59,155 bases of DNA from a virus. The stretch is taken from positions 1 through 59,155 of IMG/VR virus record IMGVR_UViG_3300020468_000007; one strand, written 5' to 3'. Positions 7,765 through 36,740 of this stretch are shown here, in pieces (the stretch's first letter is position 1; every line of letters begins with the position of its first letter). The notes below the pieces were generated by a model. That model saw only the letters and a program-made list of their open reading frames with translations, was not told where the DNA came from and ran no database searches. The position numbers and the translations under genes were made by a program.

Positions 7765-9522
7765 ATGAACCCATTAAATCGCAGAATGTTCCGTCAGCCC
7801 GGTGCGTCACGACGACCAACCGGGATCCTCGCATCTTCGCCGCAGCTTGCTAACACCGTAGCCAACCGTCAGCCAGTGCGTATGGCTAACGGAGGAATTA
7901 AGACAGGTAGCCGTGATGCTAATGAACGTAAGTTTCGGGAAGAACTTAACAGAGGTCTAATACCTGATTTATTTTCTGGCACAGGAGATTTATTGTCAAA
8001 GTACGCCAAGATGCTCCCAAGGTCTGGTTTTGCAAGACCAATGCTTGATAAGACTGTTTCAGGTATTTTAACAGCGGTTCCTAAAGCAGGAGACATACTT
8101 AAAGAAAGAAGGGCAATACAAAGCGGAGTTCTGCCGGGTAGAGTACCTGACTTTGAACTACCTAGAGTAATATCTGAGGAAGATTCACCCACCGAAAGGT
8201 TACTTGCTAGTGAGATTCTTGGTGGAAGGCGTGATGAACAATTTATGGGAGAGAAAAGAGATCCGAATCTTGATGTAGATATTGGTCTTGGTGATCAAGG
8301 CGGTGTTGAGATTAGAGATGAAATCCTTGACTTCGAGATTAACCCAGACAAAAAAGATGCAGGTGACGACGAAGACGGAATGCCAGTGCCAACATCAAAG
8401 CCAAAACGGAAAGAAAGCCCCGAGGTTAAAGTCAAAAAACTTGACAAGTTAGTTGACGCAGAAGTTATGGGGGAAAAACTAGATAAAATGTTTGTGGGAG
8501 AAGTTGGTTCTATTTTAAACTCGGATGTTTCTGAAGAGGAAAAGAACGATAGTATTTTAGAAGTTATGGGTGAGAAAGACCCAAAGAAAAAACTTACTAT
8601 GGAAGAACGTGTAAAGAAAAACATTGCACTATACGAAAAATATTTTCCAGAAGACGATGCAGATAAGTTTGACATGAATGACTTTGCCATTAGCTTTGGT
8701 CTTGCTTTGGCTACTGGACAAAGTCCCGATCTAATTACTAATGCTGCTAATGCTGCTAAGACCGCTCTTGGTGAAAAAGCTGAAAGTGATAAAACTCGGA
8801 AAGCTAGAAAAGATAAACTTAGAATGCTCGGTCTAACCAAAGCTTTTGATGATGAAAAAGATGAGAGGCAGTGGGGCAGAGAACTTGAAAAAATAAGTAT
8901 AAATCAAAAGTATGACTGGACTAAAACTGTATTCAAAAACAAGAAAGATTTGGAAAAGTTTAATGCTAAAATGGCATTTGACAAGACATCTTTGTACGCA
9001 AAACTAAATACTCAGATAGATATAGCGAACAACAACGCTGAAAACGCTGCTCGTAGGGAAGAGGCTAATCAAGCTGCTGCGTTAATTAGAGCTAAAATAG
9101 GCGCACTTTCAGATGCACATGCCGCAGCCTATATTGAGTTTGAAGGGCAAGATCTTACTAAGCCAGAGGTTGCCGCAGCTTTCCATAAAAAGGCTGATGA
9201 AATAGCAGATAGCCTAGCTAAAACTTCAAGCACTATGCAAAAAGATTACGGCCCGAAAAGAATTGAATTTGAAATAGCTGAAGCAATTGCTAACAGAATT
9301 AAGGCAGAAATAGCGGGAGGGAACCCTAATCCTGATGTGGATAAAATAACTAGAGAGACTAGGAATATCTATAGTAAAGCGCTGCAAGGAGCACAAGGAA
9401 TTAATAGTAATATCCCATCGTATGATACAGCCCCTGATGCTGATACACTGCAAATATTAGGTGATGCAGGTATTACACAAATTATAGTTGGTGGTAAGTT
9501 GTACCCAATCAATAAAAACTAA
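7765..9522 (+). CDS. Internal virion / ejection protein, highly charged helical
   Basis: 585 aa. A basic N-terminus (NRMFRQPGASRRPTG) is followed by a charged, Lys/Glu-rich middle, then a segment FDMNDFAISFGLALATGQSP and long predicted helices rich in Ala, Glu and Lys. The C-terminus is a compact beta segment (ITQIIVGGKLYPIN). It lies between the Gln-rich core protein and the 1440-aa ejection protein. Enzyme motifs are absent. Ejection protein is an inference from size, composition and position. Confidence 0.65.
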   Translation: MNPLNRRMFRQPGASRRPTGILASSPQLANTVANRQPVRMANGGIKTGSRDANERKFREELNRGLIPDLFSGTGDLLSKYAKMLPRSGFARPMLDKTVSGILTAVPKAGDILKERRAIQSGVLPGRVPDFELPRVISEEDSPTERLLASEILGGRRDEQFMGEKRDPNLDVDIGLGDQGGVEIRDEILDFEINPDKKDAGDDEDGMPVPTSKPKRKESPEVKVKKLDKLVDAEVMGEKLDKMFVGEVGSILNSDVSEEEKNDSILEVMGEKDPKKKLTMEERVKKNIALYEKYFPEDDADKFDMNDFAISFGLALATGQSPDLITNAANAAKTALGEKAESDKTRKARKDKLRMLGLTKAFDDEKDERQWGRELEKISINQKYDWTKTVFKNKKDLEKFNAKMAFDKTSLYAKLNTQIDIANNNAENAARREEANQAAALIRAKIGALSDAHAAAYIEFEGQDLTKPEVAAAFHKKADEIADSLAKTSSTMQKDYGPKRIEFEIAEAIANRIKAEIAGGNPNPDVDKITRETRNIYSKALQGAQGINSNIPSYDTAPDADTLQILGDAGITQIIVGGKLYPINKN

Positions 9523-18238: not shown

Positions 18239-19749
18239 AGCGGAAATCCATAGTGTGATTGTGATTCAATAATATGTAGTGACTTACGAGCACGAGTCAG
18301 CCCGACGTAGAACGTCCGAACTTCGGAGTCCTGATCAAGGCTTTCAGCGCATGCTCTGGATGAGTCTAGTAATAGAGCGACGTTATCCGCCTCGCCACCT
18401 TTTGCTTTGTGAATCGTCGATATCTTGATCCTCGGGGTCCCAGTCAAAATAGACTCGCCCATACGACGTACTGATGTAATGTATATTCTCTCCGTCTCGC
18501 TCACCCGCAGCACTTCGTACCACGGTGTCTCCTTCGTTGCTGACAGGGAGCACTGGCTCTGAATATCGGTTAGCCTGTAAGTTTGTTCGGGGTCTAAGTT
18601 TGCGAGGACTTTCTTGCCAGCCTTTGTAATTATGGTTGGCGTTAATAAGGTGGACAGCTTCTTCAACTCTTGTGCAGACAGTTCCTGATCCTTGCATAGT
18701 TTTAACCATACCTCGATACCTGTTAATACATTTGGAGAAATGGACCAACCGGAACCTTCACGCCAGTACAGGAACCCTTGTTCTTTGAGGTCACTTGCGA
18801 TTCTGTTGGCGATGTAATTGGTACGAGCAAGGATTAGCCACTCACCAGTTGTTATGTCCACATCCATGATATCACGATGCCAGACTATACTTCCAGTTTC
18901 TTTAGTGCTTGACCAAGTTTTTTCTTGTCTCGTTTGCAGGCGCTTAACTAAGTTATCTGCTTCTTTATGTATAGATATGGGAAGACGATATGATTTATCT
19001 AATACTATCTTATTATCGCATGCCCCCAAGAAATCTCTTACGTTCACACCCATCCAAGAATAGATGCACTGATCATCATCTCCAGCGTAGTATATGCGCT
19101 TGGCATTGGGCTTCATTACTTCATGCACCATACGCCACTGAAGCGGGACAAGATCCTGTGCTTCGTCCACAATCAAGACATCGAGTAGCGGACACTCGCC
19201 CTGCTCGATAAAGTTCTCGATCATGTCTACAAAGTCTACCTTGCCTGTCTTTCTTTTGTAGTCATTCAAAACTTGGTTTACCAACTTTAGCTGCTGGTAG
19301 TGTAGTCTGCGGTCAGCGGTCTCATTAAATTGATCCTCAACGCTAATCCCCTTGACCCTCGCCATTTGGATGATGGACATGTACGCATCACCACTTTTCC
19401 CGGGAGAGAATAAAAGCCCATCCGCCATAGTCACTGAGGAGTTAGAACTAAACTCAAGACCTAGCAGCTTTCCTAACTCTGAGTAGTCTTTACCACTTAA
19501 CACTTGTTTTGTAGTAAGCCCCAACACCTGAAACGCAAAGCTATGTAGTGTGCGAAACCAGATCATCTGATTTACATCCATGTTCAGCTTTGATGCGGCC
19601 CTCTCTCGAGCTTCTTCTGCCGCCTTACGACTGAACGAAACAAATGCTATAGACTCTGGTCTAGTGCCACTGTCCAGTTCCTGTTGTACGATCTCAATCA
19701 ACCGTGTTGTCTTGCCCGTGCCCGGGGGTCCGAAGATAGTTGTTTCCAT
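18235..19749 (-). CDS. UvrD/Rep-family SF1 DNA helicase
   Basis: 504 aa. Walker A GPPGTGKT (residues 7-14); motif Ia SFSRKAAEEA; motif II VDEAQD (195-199 region); motif III AGDDDQCIYSWMG; motif IV LDKSYRLP; motif V ISTIHKAKGGEAD; motif VI VGLTRARKSL. These are the complete set of UvrD-type 3-5 helicase motifs in a compact form lacking the long 1B/2B insertions of bacterial UvrD (about 720 aa). Between the primase and DUF6378 genes with overlapping start and stop codons at both ends. Probably unwinds DNA in replication or recombination. Confidence 0.92.
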   Translation of the reverse strand: METTIFGPPGTGKTTRLIEIVQQELDSGTRPESIAFVSFSRKAAEEARERAASKLNMDVNQMIWFRTLHSFAFQVLGLTTKQVLSGKDYSELGKLLGLEFSSNSSVTMADGLLFSPGKSGDAYMSIIQMARVKGISVEDQFNETADRRLHYQQLKLVNQVLNDYKRKTGKVDFVDMIENFIEQGECPLLDVLIVDEAQDLVPLQWRMVHEVMKPNAKRIYYAGDDDQCIYSWMGVNVRDFLGACDNKIVLDKSYRLPISIHKEADNLVKRLQTRQEKTWSSTKETGSIVWHRDIMDVDITTGEWLILARTNYIANRIASDLKEQGFLYWREGSGWSISPNVLTGIEVWLKLCKDQELSAQELKKLSTLLTPTIITKAGKKVLANLDPEQTYRLTDIQSQCSLSATKETPWYEVLRVSETERIYITSVRRMGESILTGTPRIKISTIHKAKGGEADNVALLLDSSRACAESLDQDSEVRTFYVGLTRARKSLHIIESQSHYGFPL

Positions 19750-21281
19750 TAGAACGGCACCTCATCACCTTGGACCTCGATCCCCGGAACTTGGACCTCT
19801 CTATTGAACGCAGGAACCCACCACACACGAAGAGGCTTACTATCCCCTTTTGTGGTTTTAAATCGCTTTAAACCATTGGCAGAACCACCAGCATTTAGTT
19901 CTTTCAAACGCTCTTGTATCTGTCCACGACTATATGTCTCGAACTTGTTGTTCCGAAGAAACTTTATCAGTGCCTCTATCTTAAAGTACGTCATGTTGTC
20001 TTCATCAGTGAATGGCTTACCAAGAGTAATCTCTTCCGCTGACTGAGCCTGCACCCTGCCGTCACAAAATCCTTCAAGTAGATCCATGAACTGACCCTTG
20101 TAGGTTAGCTCTTCTGGAACCTCGATCTCGCTCATGTCTTCCATCATCATAGAAACTATCTGTTGCCACGCATCCATCTTCATCAGCGGTGGCATCTTGC
20201 GGATCTGTTCCATGCAGGCTTTTTGAAATCTTTGTGGTGTCTGCAAGTCATCAGTCGTTAGCTCGACACGTTGCCCAGCTACATCACAAAACCACACAGG
20301 CGGCTCTGACTTAACAACACACAACCCCGACACATCCATGTTCGATACATGACTGCCGATACCAAACTTCTTTGTTTTGCAAAGTGTCTTGTTGCAAAAA
20401 CTTTTAAGGGGCTCCTGATCACACGGGAATCCATACTCCTTCTTCTCATGCTGGCTCTGAATTGTTACGATCTCTGAAGCTGGCAGGGAAGGAGTGCAAT
20501 ACTTACTGTTGATTTCTTCGAGTCTAGCCTTCCAGTTATCTGGCTGCTCTTTCTTACAGCCCACGGCTGCTGCAAACATAACTGTGTTGCGTGTGCCTTC
20601 GGGAATCCCCTGTCCGAACATGCAGCCCAGACAGGGGGCCCAATCCTTGAACTCGTCCACATGCTTACCAAATGTCAAACCAACAAAAACATTTGGATCC
20701 ACACTCCTCCGATCTACAAGTTCAAGAAATTCTTTTAATGACGCTGGCTCTCCGTCTTCCTTAATCGCGAAGCGGAGAGTTTGTTCCTCATCAAAGTACG
20801 GCAGGTTAATAAAGTTCCCCACATCGCCACGCTCGACAAGAATCTGTTCTTGCTTTGGGAAAATTTCACAGCCGCCGTAACCAAGTACGGCAGAAATTTC
20901 TGAAGCTTTATCACGGAACTCTCCTGCATTTATGTAGTCTTGGAAGAAAAAGAATATATGTGCACCACCAGACTTTGAACGGCACACCACACAAGGAACC
21001 TTCATTTTCTGAAGCTTCTTATCCAGTGCCACCAGATCCAGTGGATACTGATCGATGTCTAGTGCACCGAACTTACAGTTATTGTCTTCGTTAATCGGAA
21101 TAGAGCCAACACCATTGGTGCCTTTTAAATGCTCCTGAATTAGCTCTTCCGTTAGTGGTTTGCGAACGATGAATGACTTAGCTTTCTGTTTGCCAGCCCT
21201 TCTCTCATTCGATATTTGTGTCTGTCCATGTGCTCCGCTGAATCCTTCAAACGCAGCCATGAACCTTTTAAAATAGGTCAT
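19749..21281 (-). CDS. Archaeo-eukaryotic-type primase (AEP / primase-polymerase)
   Basis: 510 aa. Motif I FGALDIDQYP (Asp75, Asp77) is followed by motif II RSKSGGAHIFFFF (His108) and motif III region CEIFPKQ (Glu139) with GNFINLPYF, the AEP order typical of TOTE-type and phage prim-pol proteins. The C-terminal part has conserved Cys residues (SFCNKTLCKTKKFG) that could bind zinc, then helical regions. The protein ends QGDEVPF, resembling the tip of bacterial SSB. Expected to synthesise primers. Ribosome site is GGGGCAAACC just before the ATG. Confidence 0.88.
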   Translation of the reverse strand: MTYFKRFMAAFEGFSGAHGQTQISNERRAGKQKAKSFIVRKPLTEELIQEHLKGTNGVGSIPINEDNNCKFGALDIDQYPLDLVALDKKLQKMKVPCVVCRSKSGGAHIFFFFQDYINAGEFRDKASEISAVLGYGGCEIFPKQEQILVERGDVGNFINLPYFDEEQTLRFAIKEDGEPASLKEFLELVDRRSVDPNVFVGLTFGKHVDEFKDWAPCLGCMFGQGIPEGTRNTVMFAAAVGCKKEQPDNWKARLEEINSKYCTPSLPASEIVTIQSQHEKKEYGFPCDQEPLKSFCNKTLCKTKKFGIGSHVSNMDVSGLCVVKSEPPVWFCDVAGQRVELTTDDLQTPQRFQKACMEQIRKMPPLMKMDAWQQIVSMMMEDMSEIEVPEELTYKGQFMDLLEGFCDGRVQAQSAEEITLGKPFTDEDNMTYFKIEALIKFLRNNKFETYSRGQIQERLKELNAGGSANGLKRFKTTKGDSKPLRVWWVPAFNREVQVPGIEVQGDEVPF

Positions 21282-22763: not shown

Positions 22764-22916
22764 TCAAGCAGCTTCTTTTCTAGCTACCTTGACCAGATGT
22801 GCAAGCTGTCCGCTAACACTTCTATCTTCTTGTTCTGCCATCTGTTTCAAAGCTTCATAAACAGTCTTATCAATAGCCACTGTTTTCCAAACTTTATTAG
22901 ATTTACTTTTAGCCAT
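22764..22916 (-). CDS. Ribbon-helix-helix (CopG/Arc-like) small regulator (50 aa)
   Basis: A very short gene with a strong Shine-Dalgarno (AAGGAGTAAGCT) before ATG at 22916. The protein has a basic N-terminus (MAKSKSNKVWKTVAID), a likely beta strand, then two helices (KTVYEALKQMAEQEDRS, VSGQLAHLVKVARKEA), the layout of RHH DNA-binding proteins. It sits between the nuclease and the SSB-like block and is the only obvious small DNA-binding regulator in this operon. May autoregulate through the nearby inverted repeat. Confidence 0.75.
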   Translation of the reverse strand: MAKSKSNKVWKTVAIDKTVYEALKQMAEQEDRSVSGQLAHLVKVARKEAA

Positions 22917-29416: not shown

Positions 29417-29463
29417 GTCCTTGCCCCTTGATCCTCGAACCTTTGATATATATGATATACTGG

Positions 29464-29506
29464 TTGAATATATAATCTTATATAAGTCTTAGCATACTAT
29501 ATTCAA
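29464..29506 (-). promoter_or_regulatory. AT-rich early promoter with flanking inverted repeat
   Basis: On the minus strand TTGAAT (29506-29501) and TATATA (29484-29479) lie 16 bases apart, about 60 bases ahead of the first gene of the early operon. The segment is bounded by a perfect inverted repeat, TTGAATATA (29464-29472) and TATATTCAA (29498-29506), so a regulator could cover the promoter. Promoter activity is inferred. Confidence 0.45.
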
Positions 29507-29583
29507 TACCGCAAACAGTAAAATGCAGTCAGATAATGATTTTTTTGGGTTGAAGAAAAATAAAATAAAAATTCTGAAAATGG

Positions 29584-29658
29584 CGTTACAAACGTTACAA
29601 ACGTTACAAACGTTACCCAGTAAGGGTTGTAGCTGTAACACTTCTGTAACGTTGTAAC
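29584..29658. repeat. Iteron array: CGTTACAAA direct repeats plus inverted TGTAAC copies
   Basis: Three exact 9-bp units CGTTACAAA occur head to tail at 29584-29592, 29593-29601 and 29602-29610, with a partial fourth (CGTTAC) at 29611-29616. The complementary orientation TGTAAC follows at 29634-29639, 29645-29650 and 29653-29658. Next to an AT-rich stretch and at the point where transcription diverges, this has the look of a replication origin, a packaging (pac) site or a multi-site operator for the small terminase gene. Confidence 0.7.
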
Positions 29659-29700
29659 ACTTTTAACCCTCATAAAGCTGACTAAGAAAGGTTTTTTACT

Positions 29701-30279
29701 TTGAAAAACACTGAACCCACAGAAAACACTATTAAGAAAGGCGGAAGACCGGCTGGTCTTACCAACCGCCAGAGAGAGTTTGCCAAACTTTATGTCGATG
29801 GCAGATACAGCAATGCTGAATGCGCTAGGAAGGCAGGATATGCTGCCGACAGTGCGAGAAATCATGCTGCTAAACTTCTTGACGGTAAATCTTTTCCAGA
29901 AGTTCCAGAACTTATCAAAGAACTTCGGGAAGCTAGAGAGCGAAAATATGGCGTGACCTTGGTCAACCAACTTAAACGCTTTGATGAGTTGTCCCATGCG
30001 GCGGAAGAAGCTGGTCAATTTTCTGCTGCTATCAATGCCGAAAAAATTCGTTCCAGTTTGGGTGGCTTGACTATTGATAGGCGAGAACAGAACCACGTTC
30101 ATCAACTCGACAACTTGTCTCGTGAAGATATTGTCGCTCGACTGAGCGCGATCAGGAAGAATTACCCACACGCTTTTGGTGACGATATGAAGAGGGTTGA
30201 AGATGCCAAAGACAGAACGATCACTGTGGACGTTATTGAAACAGAACCTACCAAAGAAAACGCACTTCGAGAGGATTGA
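29701..30279 (+). CDS. terS: Terminase small subunit
   Basis: 192 aa starting at TTG 29701 with AAGAAAGG upstream. KKGGRPAGLTNRQREFAKLY followed by YSNAECARKAGYAADSARNH is the helix-turn-helix DNA-recognition domain of TerS; a helical oligomerisation part follows (HAAEEAGQFSAAINAEKIRS). It recognises the concatemer and recruits the large terminase. Oddly it is 3 kb from terL and lies in an island flanked by minus-strand genes. The following nuclease gene overlaps it by 77 bases. Confidence 0.85.
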   Translation: MKNTEPTENTIKKGGRPAGLTNRQREFAKLYVDGRYSNAECARKAGYAADSARNHAAKLLDGKSFPEVPELIKELREARERKYGVTLVNQLKRFDELSHAAEEAGQFSAAINAEKIRSSLGGLTIDRREQNHVHQLDNLSREDIVARLSAIRKNYPHAFGDDMKRVEDAKDRTITVDVIETEPTKENALRED

Positions 30280-30622
30280 AAACCGCACTGGTGAAGGAAT
30301 GCCGGACGTATACCTATGCATGAATGGTGTGCCAGTGTGGCTGGAATTAAAAATAGTTAAAAATGGCAGGGTTAGCCTGTCAAAATCACAGATTGCGTGG
30401 CATTCCTCACATTTTAGATGTAAAGGCGTAAGTTTTTTCTTGCTGCACGACCCCTTGACCAGCGACCTATTTTTATTTGGCGCGGACAAAGCGATCGAGT
30501 TGCTAGGTTCGAGGATCGATGACCTGCGGCCTGCGGCCTTGTATATCGGTGATATGCGCGGCCTGATTGAGAGCCTGCGGCCTGCGGCCTGCGCCCTATG
30601 GTCTGATGCCATGAGTCGATGA
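30203..30622 (+). CDS. VRR-NUC family nuclease
   Basis: 139 aa from ATG 30203 (GAGGGTTGAAG upstream); an in-frame TTG lies two codons earlier. EGMPDVYLCMNGVPVWLELK contains the PD...ExK catalytic motif, followed by SKSQIAWHSSHF and FFLLHDP as in VRR-NUC proteins, which cut branched DNA. The last 40 residues are unusual: LRPAA occurs twice because two copies of the CCTGCGGCCTGCGGCC repeat lie in the reading frame. Expressed together with terS. Confidence 0.85.
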   Translation: MPKTERSLWTLLKQNLPKKTHFERIENRTGEGMPDVYLCMNGVPVWLELKIVKNGRVSLSKSQIAWHSSHFRCKGVSFFLLHDPLTSDLFLFGADKAIELLGSRIDDLRPAALYIGDMRGLIESLRPAACALWSDAMSR

Positions 30623-30638
30623 CCTGCGGCCTGCGGCC
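30523..30638. repeat. CCTGCGG double-unit repeats, cluster 1 (three copies)
   Basis: The 16-base string CCTGCGGCCTGCGGCC occurs exactly at 30523-30538, 30574-30589 and 30623-30638, that is 51 and 49 bases apart. Copies 1 and 3 are also preceded by TCGATGA. Copies 1 and 2 form the coding 3-prime end of the nuclease gene; copy 3 begins at the stop codon. Two further exact copies lie at 31537 and 31580. Confidence 0.9.
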
Positions 30639-30649
30639 TAGGTCCTATG

Positions 30650-31536: not shown

Positions 31537-31595
31537 CCTGCGGCCTGCGGCCTTGTTCCTCTTTTTATATATACAACGGCCTGCGGCCTGCGGCC
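31537..31595. repeat. CCTGCGG double-unit repeats, cluster 2 (two copies)
   Basis: Exact copies of CCTGCGGCCTGCGGCC at 31537-31552 and 31580-31595, 43 bases apart, each followed by TTGTTCC and a TATATATA-rich stretch. They lie in the 196-base non-coding gap between the GP88 gene start (31465) and the next minus-strand gene end (31662), immediately downstream of that gene's terminator. Confidence 0.9.
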
Positions 31596-31610
31596 TTGTT
31601 CCCCTGTATA

Positions 31611-33345: not shown

Positions 33346-34836
33346 ATGGATGACACAGCGAACCTAGAACTGCTGCCAGAGGATGTCCTTAAAGAGATCC
33401 TGTTACTGGAGGAGCAGCAGAAGCGTCTTGAAACCAGAGACATAGCTCAAGATAAATTCATGGCTTACGCCAAACATGTGTATGACGGGTTTATAGAGGG
33501 GACCCATCATAGAATCATAGCCGAGAAGCTAGAGCGGATAGCCCGGGGTGACTTAAAAAGATTGATTGTCAATATGCCTCCCCGGCATTCCAAGTCAGAA
33601 TTTGCATCTTATCTAATGCCTAGCTGGTTCTTGGGCCGCAATCCAAAATTAAAAATCATTCAAGCTACCATGAACACCGAACTTGCTGTAAGATTTGGTC
33701 GAAAGGTCCGAGATTTGATTGCTGATCCTATTTATAAGGAGATCTTTCCAAACACGGACCTGAAACCGGACAGCCAAGCGGCAGGTCGTTGGGAGACCAG
33801 CGCTGGTGGGGAATATTTTGCAGCCGGGGTGGGCGCTGCAATGACTGGTCGTGGTGCTGATTTACTTATTATTGACGATCCGCACTCGGAGCAGGATGCA
33901 TTATCGCCTAGTGCGTATGACAATGCGTGGGAATGGTACACTTCTGGCCCTCGTCAGCGTCTTCAGCCGGGGGGAACCATCATTATTGTGCAGACTAGGT
34001 GGTCCAAGAAGGATATTACGGGCCGTTTACTGCAAGCACAGCAGAAAGATTTGATGGCTGACCAGTGGGATGTGGTGGAATTCCCTGCAATTATGCCTTC
34101 GGGGGAACCATTATGGCCTGAATTCTGGAAAAAAGACGAGCTTTTGAAGGTAAAGGCTTCACTTTCGGTGGGAAAGTGGAATGCTCAGTGGCAACAGAAC
34201 CCCACATCAGAAGAAACCGCTATGGTCAAGCGGGATTGGTGGAAAGTCTGGGAAGAAGATGACATTCCTGACTTAGATTATGTAATTCAGTCCTATGATA
34301 CGGCGTACAGTAAGAAAGAAACTGCCGATTACTCTGCTATTACAACGTGGGGTGTGTTTCAGCCCTACGGAAACGGGGATCAGCACCTGATATTGATGGA
34401 TGCGAAGAAGGGGCGGTGGAATTTCCCAGAGTTAAAGTCTATTGCACAGGAAGAATACGAATACTGGGAGCCGGAGTTGATGTTAATCGAGGCGAAAGCT
34501 TCTGGTACACCTTTGGCGGACGAAATGAGGTTACTGAACCTCCCTGTCGCTACCTTTAGCCCCGGTCGAAAACGTGGTGGGGGAGGTATGGACAAAACAA
34601 CTCGTATGCATATAGTCTCTCCTATATTCGAGTCGGGAAAAGTATGGTATCCTGAAGGCGAAAAGTTTGCAGAAGAAGTTATTGAAGAGATTGCTTCATT
34701 CCCCAATGGCGATCACGATGACTTTTGTGATAGCATGACGATGGCCTTGATGAGATTTCGTCAGGGTGGCTTTGTTAGTTTAGCAGGGGAAGAATTTGAA
34801 GATGATCCACCCCGCGTAGCAAGAGAGTATTACTGA
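33346..34836 (+). CDS. terL: Terminase large subunit (ATPase and nuclease)
   Basis: 496 aa. DNA-packaging motor. The ATPase P-loop is the phage variant NMPPRHSKSEF (about residues 75-84), Walker B is DLLIIDDPHSE, and coupling follows in IIIVQTRWSKKD. Nuclease domain: IQSYDTAYSKKETADYS with acidic Asp, LMLIEAKASGTPL, and the final NGDHDDFCDSMTMAL. Length is normal. Start ATG 33346 has only a weak ribosome site (CATTCGGGC). Begins the plus-strand late operon. Confidence 0.95.
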   Translation: MDDTANLELLPEDVLKEILLLEEQQKRLETRDIAQDKFMAYAKHVYDGFIEGTHHRIIAEKLERIARGDLKRLIVNMPPRHSKSEFASYLMPSWFLGRNPKLKIIQATMNTELAVRFGRKVRDLIADPIYKEIFPNTDLKPDSQAAGRWETSAGGEYFAAGVGAAMTGRGADLLIIDDPHSEQDALSPSAYDNAWEWYTSGPRQRLQPGGTIIIVQTRWSKKDITGRLLQAQQKDLMADQWDVVEFPAIMPSGEPLWPEFWKKDELLKVKASLSVGKWNAQWQQNPTSEETAMVKRDWWKVWEEDDIPDLDYVIQSYDTAYSKKETADYSAITTWGVFQPYGNGDQHLILMDAKKGRWNFPELKSIAQEEYEYWEPELMLIEAKASGTPLADEMRLLNLPVATFSPGRKRGGGGMDKTTRMHIVSPIFESGKVWYPEGEKFAEEVIEEIASFPNGDHDDFCDSMTMALMRFRQGGFVSLAGEEFEDDPPRVAREYY

Positions 34837-36740
34837 TGGCTGCAAAGCTTTACAAAGATCTCACACCCACCGAACAGAAAGCTCGTGACACAGAGTTAAA
34901 GGACATGGCTCGTGGTGCGAAGTTTGCCCCTTTTGATTTGCTTGGTGCTCCTGTCGATTTAATAACAATGGGCATGCGCGGTGTGGGGATACCTGTGCCG
35001 GAAAAACCTTTTCTTGGCTCCGAATATTTAATTGACAAGTATGCTGATCTAGGTGAGGCAATTGGTGTTGACTATGACCGCCCGACTGGATCCACTTCAG
35101 AGACCGCTGGTCGTCTAATCGCGGGTATAGCTGGTCTTGGAGGTGAGGCTGCTTTACTTGCATCCAACATATCTCGAGTGGCTCGTTCTTCAAAGGGAAC
35201 CAAAGCTCGTGGTTCGGGGGCCGAGAAAAAAGGTGTTGGGTCTGCACAAGCAAAAGAAATTGTTAAGACAAAGAAGGCTTACAAACTTTTTGAGCAGGAT
35301 CCCGAAACTGGGACCTTATATCCTTTGTTCGTGGACGCTAAGACTCCAGTTAAAATTGGTGAGTGGCAAACAGCAGAGATCCCGTTTAATTTCACTGCGC
35401 CTAACGGCAAGCAGTATGTGCCTTCTAAAAAGTGGGATGGCTCCGCTGGAACGGGGGATAGTGTTGCTATTCCTGATCAAGCTACACGAGACATGCTCAT
35501 AGAAAAAGGTTATTTACCAAAAGGGTCACAGGCGAAAACAATAAAGGCTGTTGCGTTACGCCCGGGCTGGCATTCAGGCGAGTTTCCTGTTGCGTCACAT
35601 ATTGGTCCTGAAGAAATGTTTATGGGCCAGAAGATGAAAGTTCGTGGACGTAATCAGGTTTGGGCTGAAGTCGAAGTTCCAGATGACGTAGACTTGCAGA
35701 GTGTTGCGGACGCACGAGCATCGATTGTTAAGTCTGGTCCTCGTAAGGGTGAGATTAACCGCGCCGAAGCTCAGATTACAGATGAGTTGCCTATGGGTGG
35801 TAGCTACAAGTACCAGCAAGGTCAGGCTCGAGATGGTAACTGGATTATATCTGGTCAGATGAAAGTAACTCGTGTGCTTGACGATGATGAGGTTATGGCT
35901 ATTAACGAAGCTGCGGGGATGCAGGATCTTCCTCGATTGTCTCAGTTAATGGCGAAGAGTCAATCTCGGTCCTCGGACCTTGCACCTGTGTCGAAGAAAG
36001 AAGTCCTCGAGGGTGAGATTGTAGGGGAGAAGAGCGCCGCGTATGCGAAGCTAGAAAAGGAGGCCGCTGAAACTGGGTCCTCGGGCATTCGTTCTTTAAA
36101 AGAGTTAAACATGGAGCTTCAGGGTGTAGACGATGCGTTTAATACTGGCAATGCATCTATAAACATTGACAAGTCCTTTGATTTTGTGAGTGGCGGCGAT
36201 CCGGTTCGATCTACGTCTGATGAGTTTGTTGACTCTGTCAAGGATTCTTATGAGTTCGCTCGGGAAGAGGGCTTTAGCCGTGGCGAGGCTTTGATATCTG
36301 CGGTTCGTGAAAGAGTTGATGATTACAATAATATTTACCCTGATGCGTTAGATTTGAATTCTGTTCTTGACGATGTATCTCGTAACGTGAACGACGACTT
36401 TGGTTTTGATCAGGCTCTTAGCAGGTTTCGTGAGGGTCAGACTAACCGCAAGGCTTTGGAAGCGGAGTTAACCACAAAGAAGAACAAAGCTCGTTTTGCG
36501 GAGTTGGAGGCTGAACAGCAGCAGTTTCGTCAGTCTCTGGGTATTACTGATGATACCCCGCCGGAAGAGGCTCAAAGAATTATTACGGAGTTTGCCAACA
36601 AGCAGCAGGCTGGTATTTCTGGGATAGGCATTCCAGATCCCACTCCACCAAAGCCTAACTTGCGCCTAGTTAAAAAAGCTGCGGGTGGCAAGGTTGACAT
36701 GCGTTCTGGTATAGGTGACTTATTTAAGGTATATTCGTAA
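34836..36740 (+). CDS. Virion protein containing a polyvalent-protein-type domain
   Basis: 634 aa. After a helical, Gly-rich N-terminus (DLITMGMRGVGIPVPEKPFL), residues about 150-385 hold AYKLFEQDPETGTLYPLFVD, then ALRPGWHSGEFPVASHIG, QVWAEVEVPDDVD, GNWIISGQMKVTRVL and QDLPRL. I recognise this order from a domain found in large phage and plasmid polyvalent proteins that are thought to be delivered with DNA. The end, AAGGKVDMRSGIGDLFKVYS, is common in marine phage proteins. Between terL and portal it is probably packaged; enzymatic activity is unknown. Confidence 0.7.
   Translation: MAAKLYKDLTPTEQKARDTELKDMARGAKFAPFDLLGAPVDLITMGMRGVGIPVPEKPFLGSEYLIDKYADLGEAIGVDYDRPTGSTSETAGRLIAGIAGLGGEAALLASNISRVARSSKGTKARGSGAEKKGVGSAQAKEIVKTKKAYKLFEQDPETGTLYPLFVDAKTPVKIGEWQTAEIPFNFTAPNGKQYVPSKKWDGSAGTGDSVAIPDQATRDMLIEKGYLPKGSQAKTIKAVALRPGWHSGEFPVASHIGPEEMFMGQKMKVRGRNQVWAEVEVPDDVDLQSVADARASIVKSGPRKGEINRAEAQITDELPMGGSYKYQQGQARDGNWIISGQMKVTRVLDDDEVMAINEAAGMQDLPRLSQLMAKSQSRSSDLAPVSKKEVLEGEIVGEKSAAYAKLEKEAAETGSSGIRSLKELNMELQGVDDAFNTGNASINIDKSFDFVSGGDPVRSTSDEFVDSVKDSYEFAREEGFSRGEALISAVRERVDDYNNIYPDALDLNSVLDDVSRNVNDDFGFDQALSRFREGQTNRKALEAELTTKKNKARFAELEAEQQQFRQSLGITDDTPPEEAQRIITEFANKQQAGISGIGIPDPTPPKPNLRLVKKAAGGKVDMRSGIGDLFKVYS

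Follow-up and report, generated by a model that had tools for sequence, protein, structure and literature searches.

What kind of signal is a short array of direct and inverted repeats lying just upstream of a phage's small terminase gene, and which protein reads it? The array in question belongs to an uncultivated virus record of 59,155 bases (IMG/VR record IMGVR_UViG_3300020468_000007). We refer to this whole stretch as the window; its map is probably circular and complete, since the related contig G001 spans its end and its start. We consider it probable that the array and its adjoining AT-rich tract form a replication origin bound by the phage's primase, with switchable recognition words that minimal satellites have copied. 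The specificity of origins is usually known from few plasmids or satellites, and our search of the open-licence literature (subscription papers and preprints were outside its scope) returned no earlier description of such a system.

Sequence and Layout of the Array

The region 29417–29700 is non-coding, noise ORFs aside. The features of the array and its surroundings are as follows.

29538–29583, no strand: AT-rich tract, candidate unwinding element, adjoining the first word on the left
29584–29616, plus strand: forward words GTTAC at 29585, 29594, 29603, and 29612, with a period of 9
29617–29634, plus strand: spacer with the conserved TTGTAGCT, 18 bases between the forward and inverted words
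29635–29658, minus strand: inverted words GTAAC at 29635, 29646, and 29654, with spacings of 11 and 8
29659–29760, plus strand: right flank, reaching into the first terS codons
29701–30279, plus strand: terS, small terminase subunit, the neighboring gene (phrog_51, E 9e-14)

The right flank is retained in satellite elements too (see below) and therefore probably belongs to the cis-acting region. The forward block, CGTTACAAA, has a period of 9 with 3.7 copies at 100% match. An earlier note on this DNA had described three direct copies plus a partial one, followed by three reverse copies. This is borne out, except that the last forward GTTAC (29612–29616) is in fact a complete fourth word; the forward words read CGTTAC and follow each other every 9 nt. 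The inverted repeat reported to flank the AT-rich stretch, TTGAATATA/TATATTCAA, is likewise present, at 29464–29472 and 29498–29506.

When GTTACAAACGTTAC is searched for with at most two mismatches, three matches fall in the array and one elsewhere; shuffles expect 0.31 and none reached four, which excludes chance as the source of the array. Scanned for a layout of three direct words and three inverted ones, the window yields this site alone. TGTAAC itself shows no strong enrichment genome-wide (42 observed vs 31.5 expected).

The non-coding DNA thus holds several short, regularly spaced direct repeats, as in iteron-type origins, and the array has an AT-rich neighbor: in the 84 distinct arrays introduced below, the 40 nt on the left side of the first word have a mean A+T content of 77%. 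Both the repeat layout and this composition support the earlier reading of iterons beside an AT-rich block as a replication origin. As for the GC-skew check proposed at the time, seven genomes have their global minimum no farther than 3.7 kb from the array, and in two it is within about 130 bp, but this position is confounded with gene orientation.

Constant Layout and Switching Words in Related Phages

A scan of IMG/VR with TerS yielded about 270 loci containing 84 distinct arrays. Their geometry is largely constant: the forward spacing is 9/9 in 73 of the 84 (the conservation of the 9-nt spacing in relatives that the earlier note had asked for), the reverse spacing is 11/8 in 62, and the distance from the third forward to the first reverse word, start to start, is 32–33 in 73. 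In the forward words the first G is invariant, with strong conservation also at the positions that follow the core. The core itself, on the other hand, switches, and it does so in concert across all copies of an array. Among the relatives we find GTTAC, GTAAC, GTCTC, GATAC/GGTAC, GGAAC, GTCAC, and GTCTT; a more distant clade has GTAACG, GTGTT (as in L444), GGGAT, GGGAC (as in L473), GTAGT, and others. One further scan match, L504, was discarded as coding noise.

Such switches separate very close genomes. L005 carries GTCTC words despite a match of about 97–99% to the window over the shared core. L006 has GTAAC where the window has GTTAC, so that every word differs, and yet its TerS and its ribbon-helix-helix (RHH) protein are identical to the window's; the genomes G019 and G020 also differ in their words and share an identical RHH protein. 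Hence neither TerS nor the RHH protein reads the word. This part of the earlier interpretation, which had named both as candidate binders, falls away, whereas origin-type iterons, a shared binder, and the 9-nt spacing stand.

The TerL of the window is 54–62% identical to that of the Pelagibacter phages HTVC027P and HTVC023P, phage 023Pt_psg01, and phage DSL-LC04. Within the parts scanned, the isolate relatives HTVC027P, DSL-LC04, and MW202510 have no site of the full layout. In HTVC027P, GTAAC and GAAAC words together with TTTGTAGC do form a looser cluster beyond terS (L141, about 8880–9010), situated between the exonuclease and the terS module, where terS is inverted; this cluster may correspond distantly to the array.

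As a separate observation, the spacer hairpin CCCTTA-TCCAG-TAAGGG is found in both orientations among the phages while its flanks are unmoved (e.g., L048 vs L065), which suggests inversion through the hairpin.

Covariation of the Words with One Primase Residue

The likely reader of the words, judging from the covariation described here, is the phage's archaeo-eukaryotic-type (AEP) primase, which is encoded to the left of the array.

19749–21281, minus strand: AEP primase, 510 aa, predicted word reader (Pfam AEP-TOTE, PHROG, Foldseek)
19812–19877, minus strand: primase codons 469–490, predicted wing of a C-terminal winged helix (residue 471 at 19869–19871)

The pattern was first seen as L471 in all GTTAC phages and Q471 in all GATAC/GGTAC phages, across lineages. 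The code at residue 471 is nearly one-to-one: L goes with GTTAC, Q with GATAC/GGTAC, H with GTAAC, R with GGAAC, and K with GTCTC/GTCTT. Among 4,465 columns from 13 conserved proteins, primase residue 471 has an association with the word of 0.979, and the runner-up reaches 0.722. Five sister pairs with different words were compared over 2,739 columns, and residue 471 alone is different in every pair. Primase differences also cluster around it: residues 463–484 hold 34 of 98 in word-differing pairs but 6 of 152 where the word is shared (Fisher 1e-10). The primases of G019 and G020, for example, differ at only 3 of 510 residues (464, 466, and 471), all inside this segment. On a tree of core proteins from which the primase segment was left out, word and residue 471 change nine times each, on the same branches.

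Genomes examined later agree (GTAAC with H, GATAC/GGTAC with Q), as do new lineages (L with GTTAC, H with GTAAC, K with GTCTT/GTCTC). Primase-based scans enlarged the set to 40 distinct primase–array pairs, down to 55% identity. In this set a Q or R at 471 accompanies a purine at word position 2 in 14/14 cases and other residues accompany a T in 26/26, a rule that was framed after part of the data had been seen; phylogenetically independent contrasts agree in 8/8 cases (p = 0.008). Among the individual cases, L349 (K471) comes from the same sample as G001 (GTCTC) and shares 103/104 bases with the end of that contig where the two overlap, and L346 (H471) shares a metagenome with L006 (GTAAC). 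L446 and L442, whose arrays differ, have primases that differ at seven residues, five of them in or beside the 463–484 segment.

One exception is L443, which has the unchanged primase of L442 (T471) and an array with GTAACG instead of GTGTT. Near 9.8 kb (about 9.79 kb, reverse strand) its kinship shifts abruptly from 99.4% L442-like to 94% L446-like, so that the contig is either recombinant or chimerically assembled. A single residue no longer specifies the word in the most distant clades (55–59% identity), where other residues must contribute.

These data bear on several other readings. One of them is packaging: the array would be a pac or cos site read by TerS or the terminase complex, and satellites would copy it in order to be packaged. 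The array does lie directly upstream of terS, and the satellite copies reach into the first terS codons. However, TerS does not change with the words between the window and L006, and the word is tracked by a primase residue but by no column of TerS or TerL. Recognition by TerS, judged as word recognition only, is thus not what we find, and we regard packaging as an unlikely explanation of the array. Pac use nevertheless keeps some plausibility, as the copies in satellites extend through the terS start, and packaging could be a second or even the main function of the region.

The RHH (Arc-like) protein encoded at 22764–22916 has an RHH_5 match, and RHH proteins bind short repeated sites, so that it might bind the array as a repressor. 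Given its identity in the genomes with different words, and given that no RHH column tracks the word, we hold this to be extremely improbable. Neighboring small genes were also compared genome by genome as possible readers (presence or absence, and divergence), and none fits the words.

The words might also be read by no protein at all and be the stems of RNA or DNA hairpins that drift with compensation. Their inverted layout would suit this, most arrays fold with z values between about −2 and −6, and some pair-wise compensation is seen (L207). Conversely, several arrays have mismatched nested pairs, and words in many lineages track one primase residue. Strong as the folds are, hairpin drift offers no advantage over reading by a protein, and we consider it very unlikely.

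In favor of the primase, the strong covariation of the word with the predicted wing suggests the cognate initiator that an iteron-type origin would have. The earlier proposal that a single protein occupies the many sites is likewise supported as a reading of the sequences.

The Primase and Its Predicted Wing

The assignment as a primase rests on sequence and fold. The protein matches Pfam AEP-TOTE (PF22548, E 3e-18) and a PHROG primase family (E 1e-85), and the CRISPR-associated Prim-Pol (CAPP) 7nqd matches it both by sequence and by fold (Foldseek E 7e-7), so that an AEP catalytic domain is recognizable at both levels. The model of the full-length protein is poor (pLDDT 58), whereas the C-terminal 119 residues are modeled well (pLDDT 86). 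In the latter model, helices 435–444 and 452–462 are followed by a hairpin, 469–475/481–490, which is the order of a winged helix. The helix 452–462 (RGQIQERLKEL) is near-constant within the close clade; the variable residues 471 and 480–483 fall in the predicted hairpin, with 471 in a predicted wing strand. From this model we infer that the helix would read the constant bases of each site and the wing its core.

A Foldseek search with the winged-helix model gave no significant solved relative, only weak matches, many of which are winged-helix proteins. No credible further copy of the domain was found elsewhere in the phage genomes, and the primase as a query matched nothing in bacterial genomes.

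Copies in Small Integrated Elements of SAR116 Bacteria

An exact-word scan of bacterial genomes led to a match in a genome of Candidatus Puniceispirillum (SAR116). The bare repeat also matches other bacterial genomes (Bacteroidales among them), but mostly at tandem CGTTACAA repeats that are unrelated. The Puniceispirillum locus lies beside a tRNA-Ser and comprises an integrase (with an in-frame stop), an AlpA-like gene, an AT tract, the array, and about 20 terS codons; beyond the integrase, the AlpA-like gene, and the terS start, no phage gene was found in it. In the same order, 17 of 136 genomes have relatives of AlpA, and in about a dozen of the AlpA loci an array of the phage shape lies beside alpA. 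The integrated elements are 1.7–2.4 kb in size and contain an integrase, AlpA, and little else. Three of them are delimited as follows.

L589, 2213–4423: integrase (split by a stop), AlpA, phage array, and terS 5′ end
L636, 120–1790: integrase, AlpA, phage array, and terS 5′ end
L637, 2526–4956: integrase, AlpA, phage array, and terS 5′ end

Five elements match phage array regions at 85–94% over 200–260 bp and a sixth does so at 80%. Their words are GTTAC, GATAC/GGTAC, GTCTT/GTCTC, GTACT, and GTAGC, and an element's word is usually, though not always, that of the nearest sampled phage. Arrays with further words occur in the AlpA loci L640, L642–L645, L648–L650, L652, and L656. The integrases in the genomes G119 (element of about 1.7 kb) and G144 look intact. 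In none of the element loci examined is there a match to the phage primase, and the elements of G055, G119, and G144 have no ORF of primase size.

These elements resemble minimal satellites that borrow the origin of a helper, on which we infer they would depend. With two genes and a borrowed origin, they may represent the smallest type of phage satellite, although they could also be decayed. The closest described counterparts are the PICMIs of Vibrionaceae, small marine satellites with an integrase and AlpA (PMC10803314). PICMIs, however, encode a primase needed for their replication and sit beside fis (PMC10803314), whereas the SAR116 elements share the integrase and AlpA with them, show no primase match in the examined loci, and in two cases (G055 and G144) adjoin tRNA-Ser instead of fis.

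The elements also help to weigh a transcriptional role, in which the primase wing would bind the array as an operator between the early operon and terS and not as an origin. The gap does separate the leftward operon from terS, and in many relatives a −10-like element is found some 50 nt to the left of the first word. A promoter scan of the window gap, though, stayed at chance level, and tiny elements without phage genes retain the region, which an origin or a packaging signal fits better. An operator is therefore, in our view, slightly less probable still than packaging.

A Proposed Mechanism in the Light of Known Systems

An origin remains the simplest single account, since the primase is a replication protein and its site is single, iteron-like, AT-flanked, and copied by small elements; the same site may possibly serve packaging or transcriptional control as well. 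In the proposed mechanism, the C-terminal winged helix of the primase would bind the repeated words, with base contacts of the constant helix to the constant part of each site and of the variable wing to the variable core, and the primase would then start replication at the array. Word and wing change together, which would give related phages mutually distinct origin addresses. The minimal satellites of SAR116 (integrase and AlpA, no primase found) would carry a copy of their helper's address, through which the helper would replicate and possibly package them.

Primases with origin recognition exist, as three systems illustrate. The α protein of phage P4 is a primase whose winged-helix DNA-binding domain binds origin repeats (PMC4234260), as predicted here for the AEP primase, but it is a TOPRIM-type primase within a multifunctional protein that also unwinds DNA, and the literature searched contains no family-wide word switching of this kind for it. 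ColE2 Rep is an AEP primase that acts at its own plasmid origin (PMC4538821), and ORF904 of pRN1 is an AEP primase with a plasmid origin and a C-terminal winged helix (PMC4234260). Both belong to plasmids, and pRN1 uses a stem-loop, not iterons; the present case, in contrast, concerns a phage with direct and inverted words.

A parallel for the switching itself is found in the PLEs of Vibrio cholerae, where, alongside the phage nuclease Odn, RepA initiators and iteron origins covary and are swapped as modules between close relatives under phage–satellite conflict (PMC8263062). In the PLEs the initiator belongs to the satellite; in the present case it belongs to the phage, and the satellite has the site only. 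The parallel suggests conflict as the driver of switching, and escape from satellites would be a plausible selective force. We lean, by a narrow measure, toward an arms race in which these marine phages re-code their origin time and again by altering the repeated words together with one primase wing, and satellites about 2 kb long follow the words of their helpers. The SAR116 copies offer a simple explanation for origin diversification and, in addition, suggest a host group for the phages.

If this holds true, the phages and satellites together are a natural library of orthogonal primase–origin pairs with a readable amino-acid-to-base code. With tens of natural pairs, some of them only three primase residues apart, the code of a winged-helix initiator becomes directly testable.

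Other Features near the Terminase Genes

The surroundings of the terminase genes hold some further features. A gene between terL and the portal gene (34836–36740, plus strand) is strongly variable in close relatives, with 25% identity in G019/G020 and no match between G011 and G016. Between terS and terL lies a gene for a Gene product 88 family protein (PF17338; 30878–31465, minus strand), which is 44–99% identical among relatives. The same interval contains non-coding clusters of the heptamer CCTGCGG (30523–30639 and 31537–31596), and HTVC027P has analogous CAAGCNN heptads (L141, 7139–7280).
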